Part shown: piece by piece, positions 47,944 to 61,945 of the stretch
Layout: each line of letters opens with the position of its first letter
Numbering within the stretch: the first letter of the stretch is position 1
NCBI RefSeq assembly: GCF_900635455.1
Contig: NZ_LR134116.1
Span: 4,650,001-4,714,000 of the forward strand
Length of the DNA: 64,000 nt
DNA from: Yersinia intermedia
GTDB taxonomy: Bacteria; Pseudomonadota; Gammaproteobacteria; Enterobacterales; Enterobacteriaceae
Reading direction: 5' to 3'
The notes under the pieces: model-generated
Told to the model about the DNA's origin: nothing
Databases searched by the model: none
Seen by the model: the letters and a program-made list of their open reading frames with translations, nothing else
Translations under genes and position numbers: made by a program

Positions 47944-49557
47944 ATGCAACCTGCAACGCAGCCCTCAGGAAAAAACAGTTTCTCTGAAAATAATATTATT
48001 AGCAGTGTAATTAATAAATATGCAAACACCGGTGTATTTATAATTAATACCAACGATCCGCTGCTGGTAAAATTCTATGATATTCAACTGGCACTAGCAG
48101 GTGTCAGTCTGGTTCGTTATCCCAACTTCAGTCAGCTTTGGGTAAATAACAAACTGGCTAGACATGCCGTCAGCTCACTGGCGATGGGGGATAGCGATAG
48201 CGCACAACAGGTACACAGCATCGTCAGCCTGGACTCTACTGATGGGCAAACATTTTCAGCAAATGCCATTGGTTCGCTACCGGTATCAGCCGTAAACATC
48301 ACGCAAACCTTAGGTATCTTTGACGAATCAGGCAGCCCGACGGGAACAGTGCAATGTAAAAAGAACTATATTTACACTGCCAATTGCCCCATTCAGGCTG
48401 ATGGCACCTTCCCGGCCAGTTTAAAACAAACCCGCTATCCAGTTAATATCATCTATACCTTTTCCCAAACGGTGAATAACCAGACAGTTTACGGGGCAGA
48501 AATTGTTACAACACAAAGTTACCCAAAATTAATTCAAAATGATTCACCTGCTGATCTAAATAAAAATAATCTGATAAAAATCTGTCTGGCCCGTAAGGAA
48601 AACGACTGTGACTACTTTAATAGTTTTGACGGCAATGTCACCGTACCGATAAAAGGTAGCGTAACCTACTTCGGCAATATTGATTTAAATAATGGCAAGC
48701 CAATAAACGCTTATAACTCAATTTATCTGGTACGCGAACGGCAGGGTGGCGATCCGATCACCCCAGCCAGTAACTTTAATTTTTTTGACGACGCCAAAAC
48801 CCGAATTAACGGCAACGTTTTATCTTGGGATCTAGACTGGCTTAAATTCAAACGCCCCGATTTTGAGTCCGGTGAGCGGGTTTATTATATCTTTAAAGTG
48901 ACATTACAAATTGAAGGCGCAAGTGTGGCCAGTTTTATCACCAATGCTCCCGGTCAGTTCGATCCTGAACAACGCTTTTTAAATACCAACACGCTAAAAC
49001 CCATGCAAATTACCTATGGTTGTTTAGGTAAAGGCACCCCCATTTTAATGCAGGATGGTAAAGAAAAAGCCATTGACGACATCCTTATTGGCGAATGGGT
49101 GCAATCGCAGGATGGGCGAGCGTTAAGAGTGGAAGATGTGATTACCGGTGCGGAGCAAAACTATCTTGAAATTGAAGTCAGGAATAGCTGCGGCCAACTC
49201 AAAACCCTAATAACCAGCCTGGGCCACCCCTTTTGCACTACCACCGGTGTGGAACTGGCGAGTGAATTGACCCTAACCAGTCGACTGCTAACCCCAGAGA
49301 GTGACTGTGGTATCAACCGTATCAACAAACAACACGGTGAGATTGAGGTGTACAACCTGCACCTTTCCACTGATGACCCCATCAAAGATCTGACAGAAAG
49401 TAACAGCACCATGTATGCCGCTGGTGTGCTAGTTGGTGATAGCACGATGCAGTATCACTACGAAGAGGCGTACCACCATCGCTCGGTGAATATCCTAAAC
49501 CAGCTACCGGAAGAATGGCGTCAGGATTATCAAAACCATATTAAAACCATAAGGTAA
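47944..49557 (+). CDS. Accessory operon gene 1: unknown N-terminal region with C-terminal Hint autoprocessing domain
   Basis: Protein of 537 residues without signal peptide. Residues 1-355 match nothing I recognise; they hold cysteine pairs (VQCKKNYIYTANCP, KICLARKENDCDY). A Hint domain spans about 360-499. It starts with Cys360 in GCLGKGTPILMQDGKEKAID (block A), has the block-B TSLGHPF with His428, and ends MYAAGVLVGDS. The C-terminal Asn needed for intein splicing is replaced by Gly-Asp, so cleavage or ester transfer, as in hedgehog or BIL domains, is more likely than splicing. About 38 residues follow the domain. The ATG at 47944 is preferred to the TTG at 47929. It heads the operon, and gene 2 starts immediately after its stop. 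Confidence 0.75.
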   Translation: MQPATQPSGKNSFSENNIISSVINKYANTGVFIINTNDPLLVKFYDIQLALAGVSLVRYPNFSQLWVNNKLARHAVSSLAMGDSDSAQQVHSIVSLDSTDGQTFSANAIGSLPVSAVNITQTLGIFDESGSPTGTVQCKKNYIYTANCPIQADGTFPASLKQTRYPVNIIYTFSQTVNNQTVYGAEIVTTQSYPKLIQNDSPADLNKNNLIKICLARKENDCDYFNSFDGNVTVPIKGSVTYFGNIDLNNGKPINAYNSIYLVRERQGGDPITPASNFNFFDDAKTRINGNVLSWDLDWLKFKRPDFESGERVYYIFKVTLQIEGASVASFITNAPGQFDPEQRFLNTNTLKPMQITYGCLGKGTPILMQDGKEKAIDDILIGEWVQSQDGRALRVEDVITGAEQNYLEIEVRNSCGQLKTLITSLGHPFCTTTGVELASELTLTSRLLTPESDCGINRINKQHGEIEVYNLHLSTDDPIKDLTESNSTMYAAGVLVGDSTMQYHYEEAYHHRSVNILNQLPEEWRQDYQNHIKTIR

Positions 49558-51327
49558 ATGATTGATATGTTTATTGGTTATCCTGATTTTCAGCAAATCA
49601 TCACCGATGACAGGCTGCGCGTCGTTGCCGTCTGCCAGCAGCCAGATGTCTACTATTTGTATCCAGAACCCTTCGCCCTGATTGTCGGTGATCCGCTGGC
49701 CTTCGCGCTGGATATAATCCTTAGCCTAAGCAACAACATAATCTACGGTGACCTTGATTTTACCGCCGAGCTACAATTTACCAGCGGCAGCGCACTTGAG
49801 GCATTCAATCGCCAGCACCCCGGCAAAGCTATCCAAGGTTTGCCGGTTATCCCTTATAAGCTCGGTTTCCGTTCACCACCTGACCATGATTCAGCATTAA
49901 CCCATCAGGATTACGACCCAACCTGGTATTCGGCGCAGTCGATTCAATTTCTGATCTCGCTTGATGCAGATACCACGCAACTGATGAAAAAAACGTTGCT
50001 GGACAATATTGTTGGCTTTAATGCCCGTATCGATGGTTTTGTCGAGGGTGTATCGCCACGGCTGAACTACACACTAGATTGCGATCCCGGCCAGTTAATC
50101 GCCGAATTAGCGGCCAATGTTAAAGACGCCAAACCTGCGTCCAACAACCGGATTGCGTTTCCCTACGTGTTGCTTACTCAGTACGTGTACGAAAATCTAT
50201 CCCGGCTACCACTGCTGATATCGCCAGCCTTCTCCTCGACCAACCCGGCAGAAGCGCTGTTATTCGCGCAGGCTCTGCTTGATCGTCTGTTCAACACGTT
50301 GGGATCGCCCTATATCGGTAACGCCAATACCAATACTGCTTATATTTGTCTGTTGCTCCCCCAGAAACAGCGCCGCCTGATAATTGATTTAAAACGCGTT
50401 GAGCTAACCCGGCGCCCCATCTGCTTTTTACTGGATCCCTTTGCCATGGCACAACAAATTGCCAAAGAGGCTCCCGAACAGGTTATCCACCAGATAACCG
50501 CACCTGCGCTGCCAGACGGTAACCTGCGGATTAACATCCTTTACGCTTTCCCACAGGGTCTTAAAGACGGGGCGTTTATTGATATACAAATCATTTTACC
50601 ACCGGGTGAGCTTTATCCTTCGGAACAACAGCAAACCCTGCTATTGATGCCCAATCAGAGTTATTTGGCTTTCACATTTATTAATAATACATTCAGTTTT
50701 AATGGTGAATACCAGTACCATATTCGCGTTAACTACCCAACCGTCAATGGATATCTCTCTCTCGTCACCGAGCAACGAACCAGCAATAACAAAATACTGA
50801 CGCTGGATTATTCCAGCTTCCCTTGTCAGTTCCTGACCCTGAATATCGATCCGACATTCGCACAACACAGTACACTCACAGGCCACTACTATTCCGCTAG
50901 CCTGTCGGAACCCTTTGAACTCACGCTGGCTTCGCCCTGTTTCAGTTATCCGATAACGGGACGTGACGCCTATGCCAAGGTGACCGCCTGGGATAACGAT
51001 AGCGCCGCCTCAGTGGTGCTCGATATGCCAATCACCCAGTCAGCTACCCTCGGTGTTTATAGCTTTCCTCAGTTCGGTGCGCAGCACGCCATCATTATCG
51101 CCCGGTTTGCCACTGGCATCCGCTATGCCACGTTACGATTTCAAGCTCAGGGCGAAACGCAAACGCGTGACCACACGTTTACTCAGCAGGATAATTGCTA
51201 TGAATATCAATGGAATGTCACGTCAATTTACGCGGCAGGGTTTCGTTATAAAACCAGTAACGGTCAATGGTCGGACTATGTGACGGGCAATCAAACCATT
51301 ACTTTTGAGGTTGAAAATGAAGACTGA
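49558..51327 (+). CDS. Accessory operon gene 2: large beta-rich protein of unknown function
   Basis: Protein of 589 residues, no signal peptide or membrane segment. I do not recognise the family. The N-terminal part (VYYLYPEPFALIVGDPLAF) resembles in pattern the starts of genes 4, 5 and 6 (a tyrosine-rich strand, then a proline, then hydrophobic residues). The C-terminal 200 residues look like repeated Ig-like beta units (for example LTLNIDPTF..., then DAYAKVTAWDND...). The ATG at 49558 directly follows the stop of gene 1; another ATG at 49567 is possible. It overlaps gene 3 by 11 bases. Confidence 0.7.
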   Translation: MIDMFIGYPDFQQIITDDRLRVVAVCQQPDVYYLYPEPFALIVGDPLAFALDIILSLSNNIIYGDLDFTAELQFTSGSALEAFNRQHPGKAIQGLPVIPYKLGFRSPPDHDSALTHQDYDPTWYSAQSIQFLISLDADTTQLMKKTLLDNIVGFNARIDGFVEGVSPRLNYTLDCDPGQLIAELAANVKDAKPASNNRIAFPYVLLTQYVYENLSRLPLLISPAFSSTNPAEALLFAQALLDRLFNTLGSPYIGNANTNTAYICLLLPQKQRRLIIDLKRVELTRRPICFLLDPFAMAQQIAKEAPEQVIHQITAPALPDGNLRINILYAFPQGLKDGAFIDIQIILPPGELYPSEQQQTLLLMPNQSYLAFTFINNTFSFNGEYQYHIRVNYPTVNGYLSLVTEQRTSNNKILTLDYSSFPCQFLTLNIDPTFAQHSTLTGHYYSASLSEPFELTLASPCFSYPITGRDAYAKVTAWDNDSAASVVLDMPITQSATLGVYSFPQFGAQHAIIIARFATGIRYATLRFQAQGETQTRDHTFTQQDNCYEYQWNVTSIYAAGFRYKTSNGQWSDYVTGNQTITFEVENED

Positions 51328-52756
51328 ACCATTAAATCCTGAAAAAAATCTGGCGTCCTTTTTTTTGCTTGATCGCGCTTTCGTCTTTCACGATCAGCGA
51401 TGCGCGCCCAACAACTATACCTATGGCTGCTTCACGCCTGAAATCGTTCATGACGATCGGGGAAATAAAACCAGTGGTTTTCACCTCACCACCAGTCCGG
51501 CAGGCGGCCTCGTCATCCTGATTACACCGCTAGTTCCTCTCAATACCCAAGCTATACAACAGTATATTCAGACACATATCTCCCACTCAGGCGGTAACAT
51601 CACCCTTGAGCAGTGTACTGCGAAGACGGCGATCTTCTTGCGCTTTCAAGAGCCGCGGGGTGACTCCACCTATCTGGTTGAGTTTGAAGGAAACTCTATG
51701 TCGACCACCCATTCGGAAGGGATAGCGTTGACTGAGGCCATACAGGGCGACGCGAAGCGGGTTTTTCTTGCCACCCACACACAATTCACGGTAAGCACTA
51801 CGGTTAATGCCCGTCTCAACAGCGACTGGCGGCAGTTTCTGATACTGGCTTTTAACACCAAAACCCGCACACCAGAGGCTATTGCGCAGCTACTCGACAA
51901 GCAAATTACTGCTGGTGTCGTCGTGCTGGACGAGGAGTTTAAAAATACCCCGTCGCCGCAGACCAAAGAGACCGTGAGAAAAAATCTGGTCGATCTCGCT
52001 GCCAGCATCCTCAGTAATACGCTCGCCAACATCTCGCATATTGATGAGATACCCACCAAAGTTGACTATGATTTTTCTTACGAAAGCAGCCTGCCCCAAT
52101 CTTATGAACTGATCGACGAACAGGATATCGCAACGCTATTCAGCGGCTTTATCGCCAATAAACTGATTTCCTATGACTCTTCACCGTTGCCTGAGCCTCA
52201 ACGAAAACAACCTGACGATCCGGGAAAACAGCATACCTGCAAAGTCAGCCTGGATTTCAATGCCAGCAAGTTTACGATTATGTCGATTGAACTGACGTGG
52301 GCGGATAAAAAAGCCCCCATGCAGTGGCCAAACTTTCCTCCGCTCACCATCACCGCCGATAGTCGCGTGAATGAGATTAATATCAAGGTCACCTTTTCCG
52401 ACTATTCATTCATTAATATCACGCGCCAGTGGCAAGCAGACATCAACCTGACCGTTCAGGATATCGGGTTTCATGAAGTGACCTTTGATGCCCGCCACTT
52501 ACAATCTGATTTTAAGACGATTTCTGGCAGTGCCAATTACGTCCCAGATGGCCAGGCCAAACGCGCTACCTTTAATTTTTCATTTTCCGATCAACAGTGG
52601 CAAACCACTTGGTTACTCAATACCCAGTCAAATAGCTTGAATGGCCGTATTGAATACCACTGGCAGGGAAAAACGTCGTCATTTATAAGCAGAAATTACG
52701 ATTCAGGTGTACAGCAGTCGGCCTCACTCCGTATTGAACTTCAATACAAAAAATAA
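51317..52756 (+). CDS. Accessory operon gene 3: protein of unknown function
   Basis: Protein of 479 residues, no signal peptide. It begins with a segment rich in aromatic residues (FFLLDRAFVFHDQ) and contains a middle helical part (about 200-245). The C-terminal half is probably beta-sandwich (KFTIMSIELTWADKKAP, then NLTVQDIGFHEVTFDA and WQTTWLLNTQSN). No family recognised. The ATG at 51317 lies inside gene 2; a TTG at 51305 would add four residues. Gene 4 follows after 23 bases. Confidence 0.7.
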   Translation: MKTEPLNPEKNLASFFLLDRAFVFHDQRCAPNNYTYGCFTPEIVHDDRGNKTSGFHLTTSPAGGLVILITPLVPLNTQAIQQYIQTHISHSGGNITLEQCTAKTAIFLRFQEPRGDSTYLVEFEGNSMSTTHSEGIALTEAIQGDAKRVFLATHTQFTVSTTVNARLNSDWRQFLILAFNTKTRTPEAIAQLLDKQITAGVVVLDEEFKNTPSPQTKETVRKNLVDLAASILSNTLANISHIDEIPTKVDYDFSYESSLPQSYELIDEQDIATLFSGFIANKLISYDSSPLPEPQRKQPDDPGKQHTCKVSLDFNASKFTIMSIELTWADKKAPMQWPNFPPLTITADSRVNEINIKVTFSDYSFINITRQWQADINLTVQDIGFHEVTFDARHLQSDFKTISGSANYVPDGQAKRATFNFSFSDQQWQTTWLLNTQSNSLNGRIEYHWQGKTSSFISRNYDSGVQQSASLRIELQYKK

Positions 52757-52779
52757 CCATGAGTTAAGAGGAATAAGCT

Positions 52780-54933
52780 ATGTTAACCACGGCAATCCAG
52801 CATTCGATTAAAATAGAGACCAAAGAACACTTAGGCGTCAAGGTATATACCTATACCTGCTATGGCGATAGCGAAGATAAAAATATTTTTTATGTTATTC
52901 CTGAAACCCCAATATTTTCTGGTCAGGAAAACAAGCCTGACTTCTTATTCTATAAATATCGTAAAGAAGAACAACAAGGCGGATATGCACAGTTTACCGT
53001 TAAACTTCCTGTACCAACAGAAAGCGAAGCTGACAAAATAAAAGCTCAGCTTTATAATGGGATATCACCGCAACTTTTGGCGAAATCAAAACTTATTGTC
53101 CAGTATATTAAGGCTGAAAAAGTATTTAATTCCGATCCAACCAATAAAGCCAATCAAGATGCCAAAATTAAAGCTTTTCAAAATGCTGGATTAACCGAAG
53201 AGCAAGCAAAAAAATATATACTCGCTTATAACCCTGATGCGGGTGACGATCAATTTCTCGGTCAATTGATGCCCGATGGAGCGCGAAAAATAGAATTGCG
53301 CCAGCCCCGCTATACCTCAGCGCAAGCCTCGTTGATCATCAATGAGGACAAAGTATTTTACTGCCAGGTACCCACGCCACTGAGTCCCTCTGGGTTGGGG
53401 AATAACGATACTGTATTTAGCATGTCGCTAACGGGGCTGGGAGCAACCCTATTTGAGAATGTATTAAAAGGAACACCAAGTAATGCCAGCGTCGGGATTC
53501 GTTATAACTTCACGCTGGATGCCTCTCTGCCGGCAGTAAAAGTTATTGTCACCTACAACAGTACGAAAATGAAAGAAGTGGCGCAGACCATTACCCGCCA
53601 TACCTGGTCTGCGGATGAAAAAGAAATCACCCGTGAATTTTCCGAGAAAGGGGCCGCCAAGGTCACTGTTATTACCAGCCTCAGCGCGAAAGAAATGGGC
53701 ATGAAAGATGACCAATATAGCGCTTGGATAAAAACCTTCGAGGACTGGGGACAAGCACAACTTCAACAAATATTGTCTACCCAAACTGGGCTGGATATGA
53801 GTATGGATTTACTGAACGATGCGGGCAGTTTTGATAAATTTAAAGAAAGTCTGAAAAACACGCAGGATTTCACCCGCGTATATGAAGAAAACCGTGTTGT
53901 TCCTTTTTCCATCGCGCCGCAGACTCAGTTGCCGTCCATTCTCTCTATTGTTGGTGCTGAGAAGGTCGATGACTATTTCAAAGAATACGATCTTGATGAT
54001 CCCTTCTTTCAGTTTATTCAACCGGAATTTTATGTCAGTCAGGATCTGGATAAATATGATATTGAAAATATTATTGTTATCGCAAAATATGATGATAATC
54101 ATGTCAGCACACTCCGCTTCGACAGAAAAAACACCGCGCCGCAAAAAACTGAGAAATGGTATATTGATAAAAAACTGGGGCGCACCTACAGCTATTCATA
54201 TACGGTGAATTTCTCAGGGTTGCATTCAAAACCCTATCATTCAGGTAAAATAGATGTAATTGATAGTCTGGTTCAATATATCAACATGGCACAATGCGGT
54301 ATTGTCTACGCACAAATTGATTCGTTACTTGATGCGCAGGCATGGGAAACATTCAGCCAGGTACTATTGAAAGCCCAATATTCCGATCCAGCACATGGTG
54401 TAGAATTAAAAAGCGATACTCAGGTATTGAATGTTTCCACGCAGCCAAAACCTTTTATTTATCCAGTAGGCATGAAGCCAGAGAATCCCATTTATTTCAC
54501 CACTAATTATTATACCCGTGATGGTGGTAATTTTACTTACATCGAACCAGGTATTGAACCATCTCCGCAATTACCCGGATATGGTGGCACCCGTGCGAAC
54601 CAGATTCAAATAATGAATGCCTTACCGAGGAAAACGACCTACTCCATATTTTTCATCGCACCGAAGAAAGATGTACTCATTATTATCTTCGACATGATGG
54701 TGAACTATAAGACCTACAAGTTTAAACAAACTCAATCGATTAATCTGGAAGAAAAAGATCTCGTGGATGCCTCCACCCGCCGCGACCTTACCTTCGAGTT
54801 TTTACCCGATGGCACAGATGACATTCCTGAAATCACCTACAGCGGTACCATTATTTACAATGATGAGCGCGATCCCAAGCCAATTGAGGGCAAGGTAACC
54901 GGTTCATCAGTCGCGGTGGTGGTGAAGTGTTAA
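52780..54933 (+). CDS. Accessory operon gene 4: paralogue of genes 5 and 6
   Basis: Protein of 717 residues without signal peptide. The start (IFYVIPETPIFSGQENKPDF, then EEQQGGYAQFTV) aligns with gene 6 (FWYLPGDIHIAVRDGKPVF, then NQQGGYINFEV). A central part (VGIRYNFTLDASLPAVKV) and a DPFFQ motif are also shared with gene 6. The C-terminal third holds Ig-like repeats, including AWETFSQVLLKAQY. A good ribosome site (aagaggaataagct) precedes the ATG at 52780. Function unknown; the shape suggests a structural or binding protein. Confidence 0.75.
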   Translation: MLTTAIQHSIKIETKEHLGVKVYTYTCYGDSEDKNIFYVIPETPIFSGQENKPDFLFYKYRKEEQQGGYAQFTVKLPVPTESEADKIKAQLYNGISPQLLAKSKLIVQYIKAEKVFNSDPTNKANQDAKIKAFQNAGLTEEQAKKYILAYNPDAGDDQFLGQLMPDGARKIELRQPRYTSAQASLIINEDKVFYCQVPTPLSPSGLGNNDTVFSMSLTGLGATLFENVLKGTPSNASVGIRYNFTLDASLPAVKVIVTYNSTKMKEVAQTITRHTWSADEKEITREFSEKGAAKVTVITSLSAKEMGMKDDQYSAWIKTFEDWGQAQLQQILSTQTGLDMSMDLLNDAGSFDKFKESLKNTQDFTRVYEENRVVPFSIAPQTQLPSILSIVGAEKVDDYFKEYDLDDPFFQFIQPEFYVSQDLDKYDIENIIVIAKYDDNHVSTLRFDRKNTAPQKTEKWYIDKKLGRTYSYSYTVNFSGLHSKPYHSGKIDVIDSLVQYINMAQCGIVYAQIDSLLDAQAWETFSQVLLKAQYSDPAHGVELKSDTQVLNVSTQPKPFIYPVGMKPENPIYFTTNYYTRDGGNFTYIEPGIEPSPQLPGYGGTRANQIQIMNALPRKTTYSIFFIAPKKDVLIIIFDMMVNYKTYKFKQTQSINLEEKDLVDASTRRDLTFEFLPDGTDDIPEITYSGTIIYNDERDPKPIEGKVTGSSVAVVVKC

Positions 54934-55002
54934 GGCCCGTCATTCTTCTGGTGTAGCGGCGGCCAGACATGCTGCCTCTGAACCGGTCCTCCCGTTGAGG
55001 CG

Positions 55003-55023
55003 GTGATGAACAGTATTCATCAC
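55003..55023 (+). other. Stem-loop between accessory genes 4 and 5
   Basis: A perfect 8-bp stem (gtgatgaa / ttcatcac) with a 5-base loop lies in the only large gap (158 bases) of the operon. No T-run follows. It may lower expression of the downstream genes or mark an mRNA processing point. Confidence 0.45.
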
Positions 55024-55091
55024 TATTGGATAGGCAGGGCATCGGTCATTACATTTATGACCGATGCTCGGTTGATTGTTTTTTATTCAAC

Positions 55092-56921
55092 ATGGACAAC
55101 CCCATGGATAACAGAATAACGGAACAAACTATCGGTTTTATTAATGCAATGCCAGGTAGCCAAGTTTATTATTATAGCGCGTTGGCACCCAGTATTTTGG
55201 TGAATGAGCAGGCTATTCCCGAAGTGCATTACCAAATATTCAGGAGCAGCGCCACCGCACAGCCGACGACTTACTACGCAATACTCTCATTGCAGACGCA
55301 GCTGAACAGCAGTATGGCTGCTGCACAGGCAGCGGCGCGGGATAATCCCGATATTCCGCCGGACGCGACCCTGCTCCCCTTACAAATTATTGCCAGCACT
55401 GCCACGCTCTGTATTCCACAAGCTATGCCTCAACTGCTGAATCACACCTCGCTGGGGAATAATCAATTTTGCTACATCATGGCTGCACTGACTGACGCGA
55501 ATGATATTCAGCGGATCGTCGCGCTGCTTCAGCAACCGGAATCGGCACCGATTGCCGTCAGTTATAAAATCGACTACCTGCAACAGTTACCCCCCTCAAC
55601 CTTTGAGCTTGATGCCCAATGGGATCAAGTATATGAATATCTAAAAATCTCATTCGGTTTTAATGCACTGATTTTTTCTTTTAATATTGATGATATTTCC
55701 GAAACCTTAATCAGTAAAAAGCTAGTTACTATCAAGGCAAGAAATACCAATCCCGACCATTATATGAGACAAGCCACGGCTGAATTGAGCACTATCCTGA
55801 CTTGCGAATTTTTCACCCCAGTATTTGGTCAAATAAAAACGGCCCCCGCGCCTAAATTTGGTTTCCAATTACAAAACATCTCAGTTAAAGATATTGATAA
55901 ACGCACGCTCAGTGCCAGAATCACCGAAACCACGGTAGTGCGGCGATCTCTCTATCCTCAAGCGCTTTTTGCCACATTGGTCAGCCAGAGCCATTATGAT
56001 GCCATCGACGTCGTAAGCTATCACGAGCTTCAGGATGATTTTTTCGCTTACCGCACCATAAAAGTTCAACTGCTGACACCAGAGTTAGACGAGAATATTC
56101 AATTGGTGGCGCTCAATTTGACTTATGGCACCACGCGGTCCCCGTTAGTTTTCTCCAGAAATAATATGGCGGCCAAAACGTTCCATTTTTCCGCCATTAT
56201 CGACCCTGTAACAAAAAAAATGTCCTGGCCGGTGGAGTATCAGTTCACATTATATTTTAACCATCCGGTCGGTGGTGTGATGTCTGCCAGTTCAGCCATC
56301 CTGAGCACATCCTTAACCGAAATTTTTCTAGACATTGAATCGTTATATAGCCGTTATCATTTCGTTATTGCCACAGAAAAAAAATTCAACTGGGCATGGT
56401 ATACATCAATATTGGTAAATATCACCTGTACCCATATTGAAAACAAAGAAAACAGCACGTCAAAAAATTTCCACATTACCGAGAAAAAACCGTCGGAAGA
56501 ATACAGCGTCATGCTGCCAGATCCTGAATGTTATACTTTTTCGGTAATCAAAGAATATAGTACTAGCACTAACACTCCCCATATTCCAGTAAGGTTAGAC
56601 CAGCCCACCAGCCAGGATGTCAGCATATCTTCACGGCTCTATAAACAAAGAACGCTGAAAATCATCCCAGTGTTCGACTGGGAAAAAATCACACAGGTTT
56701 TAGTCAATGTGACTTATTGCTATAACCAATTCTCTATGAGTTCGTTAAAGGAAGCATTTTATTTCTCTGAAAACCAGTCAGAGCCTGAATTATTTAGCGC
56801 AGACCAACCCGACCCGACGTTGCTGTTTATTAATCTCGACATCATGATTATTGATAATGATGGCGGCGTTGAAAATAAAAAACTCATTACCGATGAAGAA
56901 CAGATCGATATTACTAACTGA
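55092..56921 (+). CDS. Accessory operon gene 5: paralogue of genes 4 and 6
   Basis: Protein of 609 residues if it starts at the ATG at 55092; an ATG at 55104 or a TTG at 55026 are alternatives, and none has a clear ribosome site. The N-terminal VYYYSALAPSILVNEQAIPE and the central SYKIDYLQQLPPSTFELDAQ correspond to segments of genes 4 and 6. Two copies of an Ig-like unit occur at the end (FNWAWYTSILVNITC and FDWEKITQVLVNVTY). No signal peptide, no known catalytic motif. The tail is acidic (DNDGGVENKKLITDEEQ). Confidence 0.7.
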   Translation: MDNPMDNRITEQTIGFINAMPGSQVYYYSALAPSILVNEQAIPEVHYQIFRSSATAQPTTYYAILSLQTQLNSSMAAAQAAARDNPDIPPDATLLPLQIIASTATLCIPQAMPQLLNHTSLGNNQFCYIMAALTDANDIQRIVALLQQPESAPIAVSYKIDYLQQLPPSTFELDAQWDQVYEYLKISFGFNALIFSFNIDDISETLISKKLVTIKARNTNPDHYMRQATAELSTILTCEFFTPVFGQIKTAPAPKFGFQLQNISVKDIDKRTLSARITETTVVRRSLYPQALFATLVSQSHYDAIDVVSYHELQDDFFAYRTIKVQLLTPELDENIQLVALNLTYGTTRSPLVFSRNNMAAKTFHFSAIIDPVTKKMSWPVEYQFTLYFNHPVGGVMSASSAILSTSLTEIFLDIESLYSRYHFVIATEKKFNWAWYTSILVNITCTHIENKENSTSKNFHITEKKPSEEYSVMLPDPECYTFSVIKEYSTSTNTPHIPVRLDQPTSQDVSISSRLYKQRTLKIIPVFDWEKITQVLVNVTYCYNQFSMSSLKEAFYFSENQSEPELFSADQPDPTLLFINLDIMIIDNDGGVENKKLITDEEQIDITN

Positions 56922-56936
56922 CCATGAGGAAATATC

Positions 56937-58577
56937 ATGTTATTACTGAGAGAAAAAACCGCCACGATTAAAAACATCACGTTTTTTTCTGATGATTCAG
57001 ATGAAAACCAATTTTGGTATTTGCCCGGTGATATTCATATTGCCGTACGCGATGGAAAACCGGTATTTTCATTAATTAAATACACCGGTGATGACGCCAA
57101 CCAACAGGGCGGATACATAAACTTTGAGGTTAATACTGCTGTCGATGAAGGCGAACTCAATACCGCGTTTACCGATTACCTGAATAAACTGAAGATCAAG
57201 CCGCAAAATGCCCGTAAAGCGCCAGTACCGTTTAATAACGGTACTGTGAACTTTTTTGTTCTGGATGCACAAAATGCCAACGGCCAGTTGATTAGCGCAC
57301 AAAGCTCTAGCCTGTTTGGTAATAACACCGCCATTTTCAGTGCCAAACTGACGCCACAACAGGCGGTTATTCTGGAAGCTGCGTTTAATCAAGCGCAGGC
57401 ACCAGCGGCAGTGGCTTACAACCTCACTTATACCGGTATCACCCCGGCATTGAAAGTGGATGTTACCGCCGAATTTGACAGCGTTTATAAGGAATTCGGT
57501 GCCAAGTTTGGCATTAATATCCCTATCCCAGTCGAGACACCGGCAAGTTTTTGGCTTGGCTTTGATAGCGTAATTAAGAAACTGGAGCAAGATCAAAAAC
57601 TCGTTATTAAAGTGACCGAAAGTATGCCCAGCGACGAGGCAACCAAAGAAAAAGATTGGGCATTACAGTTTGTCAAAGAAGAACTACTAAAGATGTTTTT
57701 CAATGCAACCATTAAACCAAACGCAGAAAGTAATGAGCAGGCAAAATCGGCCAGCGCTTCCATTCTGGAATCATTGATTGGCAGTAAAGATGAGAAAGGG
57801 AAAGGCGGTCTTTTCCCCTGCGCATCGTTGGAATTGAAAGTGGTCAACATTACCGAGCATAAAACCTTATCCTTTAACTACACTTCATCAAAAGCGATTA
57901 CTCAGGCTGCCGTGCCACAAAACTTTATCGGCACCGACACGTTAAAAGCCCAAAAAGAGAAACCTTATTTTATTGAAGTAAACGTCAATGATCCGTTCTT
58001 TCAGAAAATCGAACTGCAAATCTTCGGCCCAGATGGCTTTGAAGAGTTCGGTATCAAAGCGGCAGCATTTCAAGCCAGCTACAATAACAATATCTATACC
58101 AGTGATGCCTTTACCGAGGACGGTAAAGAATGGCGGAAAAATATTGCCAGAAGCAAAGACAAAAATGAATTATTCGATCTTCAAGGCGAATTTATCTTTA
58201 AATCCGCAAGCAGCTCCGGCTGGGAAGGTAACAGCAGCTATCAGTCAAAATTCAAAACCGCGTCTACCACCATCGGTCTCGATCCAAACAATTTACTCAC
58301 TTTCAATGAAATTGATATTTTCCTCGATCGCCAGTTCTCCTGGGATAAATACAATCAGGTGCTGGTTGAACTCACTTATCTTGATGACAAAGGACAAAAG
58401 AAAACCAAAAAGTTCTCCTTTAACCCCGATAAAACCAAGGCGCAAACCTTCAAGTATCGCTGCCTAACAGAGAAACCCTGGACGGTTCATTATACGATTA
58501 CTTATCTTGAAGTCGGCGGGCATACCCGGTTGGTCGACGGTACAGATAATCCACCAGCCATCGTTATTCCGGTATGA
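56937..58577 (+). CDS. Accessory operon gene 6: paralogue of gene 4
   Basis: Protein of 546 residues, no signal peptide. The N-terminal QQGGYINFEV region, the central AVAYNLTYTGITPALKVDVT, the DPFFQ motif and the last Ig-like unit (FSWDKYNQVLVELTYLDDKG) all have counterparts in gene 4 and partly in gene 5. The middle (about 200-280) is lysine/glutamate-rich and probably helical. A clear ribosome site (tgaggaaatatc) precedes the ATG. I do not recognise the family. Confidence 0.75.
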   Translation: MLLLREKTATIKNITFFSDDSDENQFWYLPGDIHIAVRDGKPVFSLIKYTGDDANQQGGYINFEVNTAVDEGELNTAFTDYLNKLKIKPQNARKAPVPFNNGTVNFFVLDAQNANGQLISAQSSSLFGNNTAIFSAKLTPQQAVILEAAFNQAQAPAAVAYNLTYTGITPALKVDVTAEFDSVYKEFGAKFGINIPIPVETPASFWLGFDSVIKKLEQDQKLVIKVTESMPSDEATKEKDWALQFVKEELLKMFFNATIKPNAESNEQAKSASASILESLIGSKDEKGKGGLFPCASLELKVVNITEHKTLSFNYTSSKAITQAAVPQNFIGTDTLKAQKEKPYFIEVNVNDPFFQKIELQIFGPDGFEEFGIKAAAFQASYNNNIYTSDAFTEDGKEWRKNIARSKDKNELFDLQGEFIFKSASSSGWEGNSSYQSKFKTASTTIGLDPNNLLTFNEIDIFLDRQFSWDKYNQVLVELTYLDDKGQKKTKKFSFNPDKTKAQTFKYRCLTEKPWTVHYTITYLEVGGHTRLVDGTDNPPAIVIPV

Positions 58578-58593
58578 GTTACGGTAAATAATC

Positions 58594-60537
58594 ATGGTTG
58601 AACGCGTTGCGGTGTTACCAGCGGCATTGGACGCCCTGGTAACCACTTTATGCCATCATGTGCCGGATTTAGCAGGCGCACTATTACCCGACATTCACCG
58701 TTTTAGCCAAAAACGGATAGCGTCGGGGCTGCTATCTGCGGCATTTAATACCAGTCTATTGGCCTATAACGGTAGTCCACTGGAGTTCACGACATCCAGC
58801 ATAAAACCGCAGGCTGTGGCTTGCACGTTTGATACTTTTCTTCCGTTATCCACCCAGAGACGTGATATTGGAGCCTTCAGTGCGGAAAATTACCCGCATG
58901 CCTCGTCAGATTCGTCTGCGCTTGCAGCATCCTGCTTCGCACACATTGCCCGGATACAACGGCCAGATACACCGACCCAGGCGCTAAAATTTGGCTCATG
59001 GTTGGGACGGAAATATACCGCTGGCGGCGTTAAAACCAAAGTTTATTCCGAAGTTCCACCAAGCAATCAAGCATTACTCGCCCTATATGCCTCCCCGCTA
59101 AATCACGCCAATAGTGATTATCCCCTGCATCAGTTAACCGCAGCCGGACTATCGCTGTTGATGATTGGCTATTACCCAGATAATCCTGACACGCCAACTG
59201 AATATTATTATCAGTGGCACAGCGCAGAAATAACGCTGGCAGACATCGCCAACGTTATGCGGTTATTTGGTACTGAACGTGGGTTTCCTCCGCTGGCCGC
59301 GCTGCTCAGGCAGGTATTAACTAACATGCCTAATCCAGATGAATTCCCCGCCACCACCTATGGTTTCAGCCTGGTCTATAACCATCGACACCAGTTGGAA
59401 AGTTTTAGCCTGTTTACTATGGCGCCGCGCTTTTTAGGTGGCAATGCGCAGGCTGCCATCAAGATTGATGAACTATTGCAGCACGTGGCACAGCCCATGC
59501 CACTGCTACAAGCGTTGCTCAAGGAGAATGTGCCTCTTCAGTTTAATGTCATCGGCTTTACGGTTGATGCACAGGCAAGGTGCGGCATCAGTTGTACCTT
59601 CAGCCCGCAGAACGACCTTTGGCGCGAGGTTTCCCTACCAGACCGTAGCCCGCCGCTGCCGCGCGATATATCGCTAGCCGCGATCCTCCAGCAACAGCAG
59701 TCAGAAAACGGGGCGTTCCTGTCCAGTGTCAGAACACCCGACGGCCAGTGGCATCAGGACGCCAATGCTTTTGTCACTGCTCAGGTATTAAGGACACTCG
59801 ACTACACCGAGCAAACGGCCCCCTATATCGATCGCGCGCTGGATTTTCTCGCTACTTGTGAAACCCGCCCCGGTCATTTCAGTTTCTGGCCTCGTCACGC
59901 TCATCCCCGGTGGATGAACGGCCAGATGATTGACGCCGATATTGATGACACGGCGATAATTACCGAAATGTTGTACAAATTTGGCCGTATTTCGCCTGAC
60001 GCTGTTCGCCTAACGCTGATTGAGATGAATGGCTATCAGTTACAGAAGGTTGATGCCCGACTTGCCGAACCGCAGCATCAATGGGCTGAATGTCAAACCT
60101 TCCACACTTGGATGAAACAAAATAATGAAATTAGCCAGCTCGACTGCTGTGTTAATACCAATGCGCTAATTTTACTGTATCGTTTTTATGGCGAACAATG
60201 CGCAACCCTACCGGCTTATTATCGTATTATCACCATGCTGAATAAAGCCGTCGTTTGGAGTCAAAACGAATACCAGAGAATAACCCAATTAACCCCCTAC
60301 TACGCCCATCCCGCTGAATGGTTGTCCACACTTGAATATGCCCAAAATATAGGTATCGATGCGCTATCAGACATTATTACGCCGTTAAAAAAATGGCAGT
60401 TCGCTAGTGGCGCTGGGGAAATACCGCTCTATCGCCGTCACGATGGACAGTATCTGTGGACCTCATCCTATTTATCAGCGCTAAGGCGTTGCTCTGTTCT
60501 CTATGATACGAAGGATACCTATGAACATCTTTCTTAA
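58594..60537 (+). CDS. Accessory operon gene 7: putative ABBA prenyltransferase fused to class II terpene-cyclase-like toroid
   Basis: Protein of 647 residues. The N-terminal half (about 50-345) resembles the ABBA-fold aromatic prenyltransferases: NGSPLEF with Glu64, where fungal indole prenyltransferases have their catalytic Glu in GTPFEL; GGVKTKVY with Lys147/Lys149 and Tyr151 as in the diphosphate-binding KTY/KIY strands; then three more paired beta strands (EYYYQWHSAE, TTYGFSLVYN, QFNVIGFTVD). The C-terminal half (about 360-640) has the Gly/Trp/Asp pattern of the prenyltransferase/squalene-cyclase toroid (SENGAFLSS, TPDGQWHQDANAFVTAQVL) and DADIDDTA, whose Asp449-Asp452 fit the DxDD acid motif of class II terpene cyclases. 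Both domain calls rest on motifs only. The ribosome site is weak. Confidence 0.65.
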   Translation: MVERVAVLPAALDALVTTLCHHVPDLAGALLPDIHRFSQKRIASGLLSAAFNTSLLAYNGSPLEFTTSSIKPQAVACTFDTFLPLSTQRRDIGAFSAENYPHASSDSSALAASCFAHIARIQRPDTPTQALKFGSWLGRKYTAGGVKTKVYSEVPPSNQALLALYASPLNHANSDYPLHQLTAAGLSLLMIGYYPDNPDTPTEYYYQWHSAEITLADIANVMRLFGTERGFPPLAALLRQVLTNMPNPDEFPATTYGFSLVYNHRHQLESFSLFTMAPRFLGGNAQAAIKIDELLQHVAQPMPLLQALLKENVPLQFNVIGFTVDAQARCGISCTFSPQNDLWREVSLPDRSPPLPRDISLAAILQQQQSENGAFLSSVRTPDGQWHQDANAFVTAQVLRTLDYTEQTAPYIDRALDFLATCETRPGHFSFWPRHAHPRWMNGQMIDADIDDTAIITEMLYKFGRISPDAVRLTLIEMNGYQLQKVDARLAEPQHQWAECQTFHTWMKQNNEISQLDCCVNTNALILLYRFYGEQCATLPAYYRIITMLNKAVVWSQNEYQRITQLTPYYAHPAEWLSTLEYAQNIGIDALSDIITPLKKWQFASGAGEIPLYRRHDGQYLWTSSYLSALRRCSVLYDTKDTYEHLS

Positions 60538-61945
60538 TGACCTGGTCACGCTAAACAAAATCATTCTGGAAAACGCGCAGCAGCAGTTTACCGAAAACGT
60601 TAATCTGACCAGAAAATTGCGGGCAACTCTAACGCCATTATCCGACGAATTGATAGCGCAGGTCAGTACCGAGAATGTCTCTGGCGAAATACGCTATCAG
60701 ATTGAAACCACAACAGATGGCATTAGTTGGACGATGGTACTGAGTTTCTTTCTCAACAAAAACGTTCAGGAAATGCCGTATGTGGTGCTCAATTTCAATC
60801 AGTTTGGCAAATTCAATGAAATGATATTTCAGGACGTGGCACTCAAAACTGAACGACAATATCAGGCTCAACTAAAACTAACCCGACTTGAGCAGCGAGA
60901 TGCGTTATTAAGAGCCTTATCCAACTACGATGCGCAAACCACGCTGGTGATCGCCATCAAGTCTGATACCGGTCTGCTCAATACCATTACTGATCCTAAA
61001 ATATTTTATTTTGCGGAAAATTATTATCCTTATATCTACCGCGGTATCGCGCCACCGAATCCACGTCTGGAATTAATTCTCATACCAATAGAATATCATC
61101 AATATTGGTATAACTATTATCAGGATAACATTCGTAAAGATTATCTTTATTATTTACCAGATACGTTTCAACTGGCCAGTAACAGCAATGACAATAATAA
61201 ACCCATGTTGTCGATCTCCTTTTCTGCGCCAGAAGGGGCAACAGAGGTGGCTCAGTTCAATGTGACCTTTGACTATTTCTTGCTACCCAAGGTGGACAGA
61301 CAACGCATTAACGACGCCGAAACTACCTTTATCCAATCCCAGCCACAGGGTAAGTTGATCCCTTTTTCCAGTGCGCATAGCCTTAAACTACGGCTGTCAT
61401 TACCGGCGGGAAAAACCGAAGAGACCAACGCCATAGTAAACTTGCAAAGCGGCATTATTGATTCGTTCACGCTGCCCTCGGCGCAGTTTGCAAAAATTTG
61501 GGACGCGCTGTTTGATACCACAGCACAGCATCTGTTGCTCAATGGCGAACTGGAAGTTAAACAGGAAGGCTTCAGCCCTGACAATATCCCGGTACAACTC
61601 AGGATGCCGGTTGAATATAAAAATAATCCCCAGCCGTTTATCGATAAGTCCACCCCGGTTGAGATTGTCAAAACGCTGAAGTTTATCAGCAGCCAGGGTG
61701 CTTATGACCCCACCGGCCCAAAACCCATAGAACAGATGCTAATCAGCATCAACAACCAGACAATAGCACTGAACAGCGAGCAGCCCACCAAAACCTTAAA
61801 AGTGAAAGTGTCAGCCTTGCAACTCATTCTTAATCCGCAAGAAAAGCTGATCTACCATTATGATGTGCAGATTCATTATCAGGATGGGGCAAGAAAAGAA
61901 CTTAGAGATTTAACCTCAACTTTCGAAATTATTTATGTCCCTTGA
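60521..61945 (+). CDS. Accessory operon gene 8: protein of unknown function
   Basis: Protein of 474 residues, no signal peptide. The start at 60521 (MNIFLND) has the ribosome site gaagga and lies inside gene 7 (17-base overlap); an upstream ATG at 60503 would add six residues. A tyrosine-rich middle (NYYPYIYRGIAPP, HQYWYNYYQDNIRKDYLYYL) and beta-rich ends (FNVTFDYFLLPK, YHYDVQIHYQDG) are seen. It may be a distant relative of genes 4-6. It is the last gene of the operon and converges on glmS. Confidence 0.7.
   Translation: MNIFLNDLVTLNKIILENAQQQFTENVNLTRKLRATLTPLSDELIAQVSTENVSGEIRYQIETTTDGISWTMVLSFFLNKNVQEMPYVVLNFNQFGKFNEMIFQDVALKTERQYQAQLKLTRLEQRDALLRALSNYDAQTTLVIAIKSDTGLLNTITDPKIFYFAENYYPYIYRGIAPPNPRLELILIPIEYHQYWYNYYQDNIRKDYLYYLPDTFQLASNSNDNNKPMLSISFSAPEGATEVAQFNVTFDYFLLPKVDRQRINDAETTFIQSQPQGKLIPFSSAHSLKLRLSLPAGKTEETNAIVNLQSGIIDSFTLPSAQFAKIWDALFDTTAQHLLLNGELEVKQEGFSPDNIPVQLRMPVEYKNNPQPFIDKSTPVEIVKTLKFISSQGAYDPTGPKPIEQMLISINNQTIALNSEQPTKTLKVKVSALQLILNPQEKLIYHYDVQIHYQDGARKELRDLTSTFEIIYVP

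Follow-up and report, generated by a model that had tools for sequence, protein, structure and literature searches.

Positions 4,650,001–4,714,000 of the Yersinia intermedia contig NZ_LR134116.1 (64,000 nucleotides, referred to here as the window) contain an island of eight genes, g1–g8, between pstS and glmS. The island was found to be the enterobacterial eight-gene form of a more general core of six paralogues with a plug-in enzyme. The widely conserved unit is the six paralogues and an enzyme, not all eight genes. From the co-occurrence, order and paralogy of the genes, the folds predicted for gene 7 and the tracking of the enzyme by the g6 lineage, it is proposed with a probability of about 0.5 that the six paralogues would form a heteromeric assembly on which g6 docks a swappable enzyme, gene 7 in this genome. 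The features of the island are listed below (dN/dS, ratio of nonsynonymous to synonymous substitution rates against the island of a sister species; AF2, AlphaFold2; pLDDT, predicted local distance difference test; pTM, predicted template modelling score; Ig, immunoglobulin; hhalign results as E values).

47944–49557, + strand: g1, with an N-terminal part of about 359 residues whose relatives were found only in g1-type proteins and a C-terminal Hint domain (PF05203, 3.9e-8); dN/dS 0.103
49021–49449, + strand: Hint domain of g1, residues about 360–502, from an alignment of 8 sequences
49558–51327, + strand: g2, core paralogue with a relationship to g6 in its N-terminal part (hhalign 3.8e-11, probability 97); dN/dS 0.140
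51317–52756, + strand: g3, core paralogue (hhalign 1.3e-10, probability 97); dN/dS 0.204
52780–54933, + strand: g4, core paralogue (hhalign to g6 1.5e-109)
55092–56921, + strand: g5, core paralogue, frame open from 55026 (hhalign to g4 2.9e-63)
56937–58577, + strand: g6, core paralogue adjoining the enzyme slot, proposed enzyme adaptor (AF2 pLDDT 75.1)
58002–58574, + strand: two C-terminal Ig-like beta-sandwiches of g6, residues 356–546
58594–60537, + strand: g7, aromatic prenyltransferase fused with a class II terpene cyclase beta domain (AF2 pLDDT 90.2, pTM 0.89)
58606–59619, + strand: DMATS-type (ABBA, alpha-beta-beta-alpha) prenyltransferase domain of g7, residues 5–342
59650–60513, + strand: class II terpene cyclase beta domain of g7, residues 353–640
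59938–59949, + strand: DIDD (DxDD) motif of g7, residues 449–452, with D449, D451 and D452 unchanged in all 23 rows
60521–61945, + strand: g8, core paralogue with the weakest link (hhalign to g2 2.2e-6, probability 89; to g6 4.5e-4, probability 33)

The eight open frames run head to tail on the + strand (47944–61945), and the flanking pstS and glmS are both on the - strand. With the preferred starts, the gaps from g1 to g8 were determined to be 0, -11, 23, 158, 15, 16 and -17 bases, so that the layout given by an earlier sequence-only reading, eight genes in one direction with a single gap above 30 bases, was reproduced. The proteins were 93.5–97.3% identical to those of the related island in the sister species (G008). 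The dN/dS values of this pair, 0.070–0.204 across all eight genes, indicate that all of them are maintained genes under purifying selection. The content of guanine and cytosine was close in the island (0.453) and in window bases 1–46000 (0.466). Nothing above the curated cut-offs of Pfam or NCBIfam was obtained with g2–g8; the same reading had named no certain family besides a Hint domain in g1 and a prenyltransferase/cyclase-like g7. Its statement that signal peptides are missing agreed with a simple hydropathy scan, applied without a signal-peptide predictor, in which no strongly hydrophobic 19-residue segment was found in g1–g8 (maximum Kyte-Doolittle value 1.99, in g2). One 12-residue stretch at the N-terminus of gene 7 reached 2.18; this stretch lies within the first strand and helix of the modelled fold. 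Dedicated regulation of the operon was rejected: no ops site was present in the island, and the promoter and terminator scans were no better than those of shuffles.

By hhalign, g2, g3, g4, g5, g6 and g8 were determined to be paralogues, the unrelated controls giving E values of 0.35–0.48; the relationship of g3 and g8 with each other was not detectable. No library scanned gives the six a name. The description of six large beta-rich proteins was borne out by a model for g6 and extends to the other five by homology alone. Relatives of g6 were collected at 71 loci by scanning species genomes once with a pair of peptide patterns, which is not a census, and many of the loci were cut by contig ends or the fetch limit. 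They belong to about nine phyla: Pseudomonadota, Actinomycetota, Bacteroidota, Bacillota, Cyanobacteriota, Nitrospirota, Acidobacteria, Chloroflexales and one archaeon, the last being an uncultured Methanosarcinales archaeon.

With profiles built from the loci themselves and then searched back, g6 was present in 71, g5 in 69, g4 in 67, g2 in 50, g8 in 49 and g3 in 43 of the 71 loci. The combination of g8, g2, g4, g5 and g6 was detected in 48 loci, broken ones included, and the order g2-g4-g5-g6 was kept in 45 of the 46 loci with these four genes, a count that leaves out 7 broken or fragmentary loci. The placement of g8 was readable in 44 loci; it stood before g2, opening the cluster, in 33, and after g2 in 11, all enterobacterial. 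Fusion of g2 and g3 was observed in loci L035 and L038. The conserved co-occurrence of all eight genes, named by the earlier reading as support for a single system, was not seen: the full set was found in only 12 of the 71 loci, all enterobacterial, and two of these (L018, L021) were badly frame-shifted. The g4 profile matched 27 of 27 genomes, all picked beforehand for holding the cluster. The claim that the system is undescribed stood in the libraries and papers searched, and related clusters were found in many phyla. No paper describing it was found in a literature search that most subscription journals lay outside of, and the text of PMC8195603 contained none of the terms sought. If the proposal is true, it would add a conserved multi-protein system over about nine phyla, an archaeon included, that is absent from the searched libraries and papers.

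Some loci had unusual cores. In L018 (1075–14988, Pectobacterium sp. PL152) and L021 (1258–14816, Enterobacter sp. EA-1) nearly every gene is split into short frames, with g8 of L018 open; either decay or poor sequence may be the reason. Cohnella faecalis (L075, L077, L078, L079) has fragmented, partly inverted core copies on separate contigs of one genome. Two extra core paralogues were located upstream on the opposite strand in L046, L051, L052, L061, L068, L030 and L036 (Streptomyces, Sphaerisporangium).

The position after g6 was occupied by a prenyltransferase-like (PT) and/or caspase gene on the same strand in 50 of the 59 loci with at least 1500 bases after the last g6. Over all 71 loci, PT was detected in 45, caspase-like protease in 11, a terpene-cyclase-like domain in 23 and PT together with caspase in 4. 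The caspases of the relatives matched PF00656 (1.2e-21, 1.6e-24), a peptidase C14 domain, and the dyad of His (GHG) and Cys (DxC) was invariant in 8 sequences. L062 (Hydrogenophaga) and L073 (Nitrospira) each had a g6 copy preceding a caspase and a second g6 copy preceding PT and cyclase. In the g6 tree, 50 rows were labelled by the next enzyme gene (9 caspase, 41 PT; L024, where both follow, was labelled caspase). The labels required 3 changes compared with 8.4–8.5 in shuffles, and 0 of 500 shuffles were as low. The caspase-side copies of L062 and L073 paired across phyla (100/100), and their PT-side copies grouped with the PT-type g6 of Lysobacter (97/95). Host taxonomy does not account for the two double loci. 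Judging from these sequences, g6 and the enzyme are probably inherited, and so probably work, as a pair. Since the g6 lineage tracks the enzyme and the double-copy genomes pair each g6 with its own enzyme, g6 probably docks the enzyme.

Membership in the cholesterol-dependent (thiol-activated) cytolysins, which combine pore-forming domains with an Ig-like domain 4, is doubtful, as the resemblance was confined to an Ig-like domain with a Z value of the size seen for common arrangements. A viral structure library gave only weak Ig-like or tail-fibre matches, with a query-normalised TM-score of at most 0.18 among the 50 matches listed. In the Lysobacter loci L058 (14386–16485), L049 (15375–17549), L064 and L071, a common frame of 700–850 residues (cluster C19) follows PT; no Pfam match was obtained for the one scanned, and the frame may be a wrong-frame call.

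Both resemblances suggested earlier for g7, to a prenyltransferase and to a cyclase, were found, as two domains of a confident AF2 model. Residues 5–342 superposed on DMATS enzymes and form an ABBA barrel, and residues 353–640 have the beta-domain toroid fold of class II terpene cyclases (TCbeta). A relationship to DMATS was also detected by sequence: the profile of the free-standing PT family (A3) matched best 6zrx (1.9e-5), 6zry (2.1e-5) and CymD (4.2e-4), and the N-terminus of g7 matched A3 with 5.5e-32. No matches were obtained with the profile of g7 alone (A2), and none below E 1 with profile A1 against the PDB sequences. The PxE glutamate, KxY and DxDD were kept or nearly so across the g7/PT alignments. 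In DMATS enzymes the basic and Tyr residues of the motifs bind diphosphate. Gene 7 differs from the DMATS-type enzymes 6-DMATS, CymD, PriB and FgaPT2 by its terpene cyclase fusion, its link to the six-paralogue core and a Glu for one diphosphate-motif Lys. It also differs from the HAD-TCbeta drimenol synthases (AsDMS), having a DMATS-type partner domain in place of the N-terminal HAD phosphatase. To our knowledge, no natural fusion of a prenyltransferase with TCbeta has been reported before. PMC12365925 gives D331, D333 and Y427 as catalytic in AsDMS. An offset of 118, close to the 116 with which the aligned range begins, would place D449 and D451 of g7 at D331 and D333, and by numbering Y542, conserved in at least 90%, may correspond to Y427. 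The dN/dS of gene 7 was 0.122. Its fold and motifs make catalysis likely, and such a fusion is a possible one-protein route to terpenoid-modified aromatics.

According to the proposed mechanism, each kind of paralogue would have its own place in a heteromeric beta-sandwich assembly, and g6, the last paralogue, would dock the exchangeable enzyme encoded beside it. In this genome that enzyme would be the prenyltransferase-cyclase fusion. Protonation by the beta cyclase domain would convert a prenyl diphosphate, e.g. farnesyl diphosphate, into a cyclic, drimane-like diphosphate, and the DMATS domain would move the cyclised or linear prenyl group onto an aromatic acceptor, either a small molecule or a protein through one of its aromatic residues. 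The slot is filled in other phyla by caspase-like proteases or by a prenyltransferase without cyclase. The fuller picture, a phylum-crossing machine in which g6 adapts a six-paralogue heteromer to a protease, a PT or a PT with cyclase, and in which the plug-in here cyclises and transfers on one chain, is given somewhat less than even chances. If true, it would give a testable rule by which a single scaffold accepts various enzymes, an exchange of g6 bringing an exchange of the enzyme. The earlier suggestion of a system that makes and processes a modified protein complex or product is in keeping with the enzymes encoded (prenyltransferase, cyclase and Hint, with proteases in relatives), the modification itself being putative.

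Several observations weigh against the docked assembly. Neither PT nor caspase was detected by profiles in 9 of the 59 loci with room after g6 (L030, L036, L042, L045, L054, L076, L077, L079, L080), several of which are fragmentary. The clustering of g6 labels is partly shared ancestry or taxonomy, and either label may have had a single origin. The g6 model was weak (pLDDT 75.1, pTM 0.44), its N-terminal half being poorly predicted, and any partners of g1 and gene 7 are putative. No consistent defence-island setting was seen, EAD and STAND-like genes adjoining the one Paracoccus plasmid relative examined. Finally, the second RxKxY of DMATS reads ExY in the PT family, and this replacement of Lys with Glu could weaken the diphosphate binding. 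The same replacement would suit enzyme domains that have lost catalysis and act as structural components; this is improbable in view of the nearly intact PxE glutamate, KxY and DxDD, the kept caspase dyad and the dN/dS of 0.122 for gene 7.

The nature of gene 7 also bears on a biosynthetic cluster, in which it would make a prenylated or meroterpenoid-like small molecule, with the six beta proteins serving in its storage, transport or export. The DMATS and drimenol-synthase folds belong to natural-product enzymes, the nearest solved relatives by sequence are DMATS enzymes, and a two-step fusion suits a pathway. However, caspases occupy the same slot in other genomes, the six paralogues would be an unusual carrier, and Pfam and NCBIfam revealed neither a transporter nor an additional tailoring enzyme in the island. 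A biosynthetic cluster is considered rather unlikely.

The Hint domain reported earlier in g1 was confirmed with PF05203 (3.9e-8). Cys360 and His428 were invariant in the alignment of 8, and the end of the domain reads LVGD in 8 of 8 rows, with Asp in place of the intein C-terminal Asn. Inteins end in a C-terminal Asn followed by a nucleophile, and the Cys and His serve the N-terminal acyl transfer. As Cys360 and His428 are kept and the C-terminal Asn is gone, N-terminal cleavage or ester transfer appears possible and splicing is not expected. The C-terminal domain of g1 resembles the Hint/Hedgehog-intein domains in the Cys and His of the N-terminal acyl transfer and departs from them in lacking the C-terminal Asn and in being followed by about 38 residues only. 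It may cut or esterify the N-terminal part of g1 itself. The g1 search gave 38 proteins, those with named organisms being from enterobacteria and one Colwelliaceae bacterium. A single-sequence search, run without a positive control, did not find g1 in 15 distant genomes, and g1 was found only alongside the enterobacterial-type version of the system.

These features would suit a self-modifying lipidated assembly, in which gene 7 would attach a prenyl group to an aromatic residue in g1 or a core protein, and release or esterification of that protein by the Hint domain would anchor the assembly to membranes. Hedgehog-type processing has the N-terminal cleavage residues without the C-terminal Asn, and g1 keeps the same set. 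The absence of a clear signal peptide or membrane segment in the simple scan, the tie between the enzyme and the g6 lineage, and the long Pro/Ser/Thr-rich linker found in many distant g6 relatives point in the same direction. On the other hand, the substrates of solved DMATS enzymes are mostly free amino acids or small peptides, g1 was not found in the 15 distant genomes and no acceptor residue was identified; a lipidated assembly is judged unlikely.

A secreted, Hint-processed complex of the polymorphic-toxin type, with the enzymes as payload, is still more doubtful. The source annotation of two g1 relatives reads 'polymorphic toxin-type HINT domain-containing protein', an HBL-type protein adjoins an Azospirillum relative, and contractile injection sheath genes lie downstream in the archaeal relative. 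Against these, only about 38 residues, without a Pfam match, follow the Hint domain of g1, where polymorphic toxins with HINT carry a toxin domain, and no secretion-associated family was matched by g1–g8 in Pfam or NCBIfam. Sheath genes passed the cut-off in 15 of the 27 core-holding genomes, but in just 2 did they share a contig with the core at a distance below 25 kb, and the genome of the window had none. A role as contractile-injection cargo was accordingly rejected. The two distances were about 7 kb from g6 in the genome of L047 and about 22 kb in that of L052; in most other sheath-positive genomes the sheath genes are on other contigs than the core.

In the archaeal relative (L047, 16627–20796; L082; L081, 11616–12188), the operon has phage-sheath genes on its downstream side and a C70-type papain-like protease upstream. 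A few kb from the operon of L052, in a Streptomyces genome, are genes for a LodA-type quinone oxidase and a tryptophan-halogenase-like flavoprotein (L084, 4283–8942).

For the biological role, antagonism or defence is tentatively taken as the likeliest guess. The leaning to a conflict system comes from the effector-like enzymes in or beside the slot in relatives. On a Paracoccus plasmid (L099, 6414–32266), the core paralogues occur with a phospholipase-D-like protein, tyrosinase and trypsins, and EAD1 proteins and an AAA/STAND-like ATPase adjoin them. An Azospirillum plasmid (L101, 12472–20276) carries a minimal form, in which a single g4 relative is accompanied by PT and cyclase as separate genes and by the HBL-type protein. 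EAD-linked conflict systems are described in PMC7159879 (Kaur et al. 2020). These EAD/STAND/caspase systems resemble the present one in joining a core that stays the same to effectors that vary, caspase and trypsin among them; the core here differs in being six beta-rich paralogues without any match to a nucleoside triphosphatase family. No EAD was found in g1–g8 of the window, and a term search of the PMC7159879 text returned none of the words prenyltransferase, terpene and tyrosinase. PADLOC matched solely the Hint region (homing-endonuclease model, 0.0012) and the caspases of relatives.

The distribution was surveyed in 16 species of the genus of the window, its own included, in which both flanking genes were found. 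The distance between pstS and glmS was 15.5 kb in the window, 15.2 kb in G008 and 330–2004 bp in the other 14 species, so the island is present in 2 of the 16. The short spacer stated earlier for E. coli was seen in 14 of 16 species of this genus, in which the comparison was made. A g6 search of 60 relatives gave 3 matches: the own genome, G008 and G035, which is of another genus of the same family. Wider sampling gave no g7 in 393 other Enterobacterales genomes and, with the g4 profile at an E value of 1e-20 or lower, the core in 2 of 397 other Pseudomonadota. These few matches indicate that the system is rare and patchy. The closest named relatives of g1 and g7 were Pectobacterium proteins with 83–87% identity. 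The accessory part of the proposed mobile accessory system is upheld by these counts, but no integrase or transposase was seen among the island frames; the patchy occurrence and a g6 tree whose branching is not simply that of the taxonomy suggest that the island may be mobile.

A phage or plasmid origin was also considered and rejected. No match was found in viral contigs, nor in phage records with g7 or an archaeal g4; PHROGs gave only weak matches to families of unknown function, and the g6 DNA search of E. coli genomes was without a match. Among plasmids, weak core relatives were detected in 4 records.

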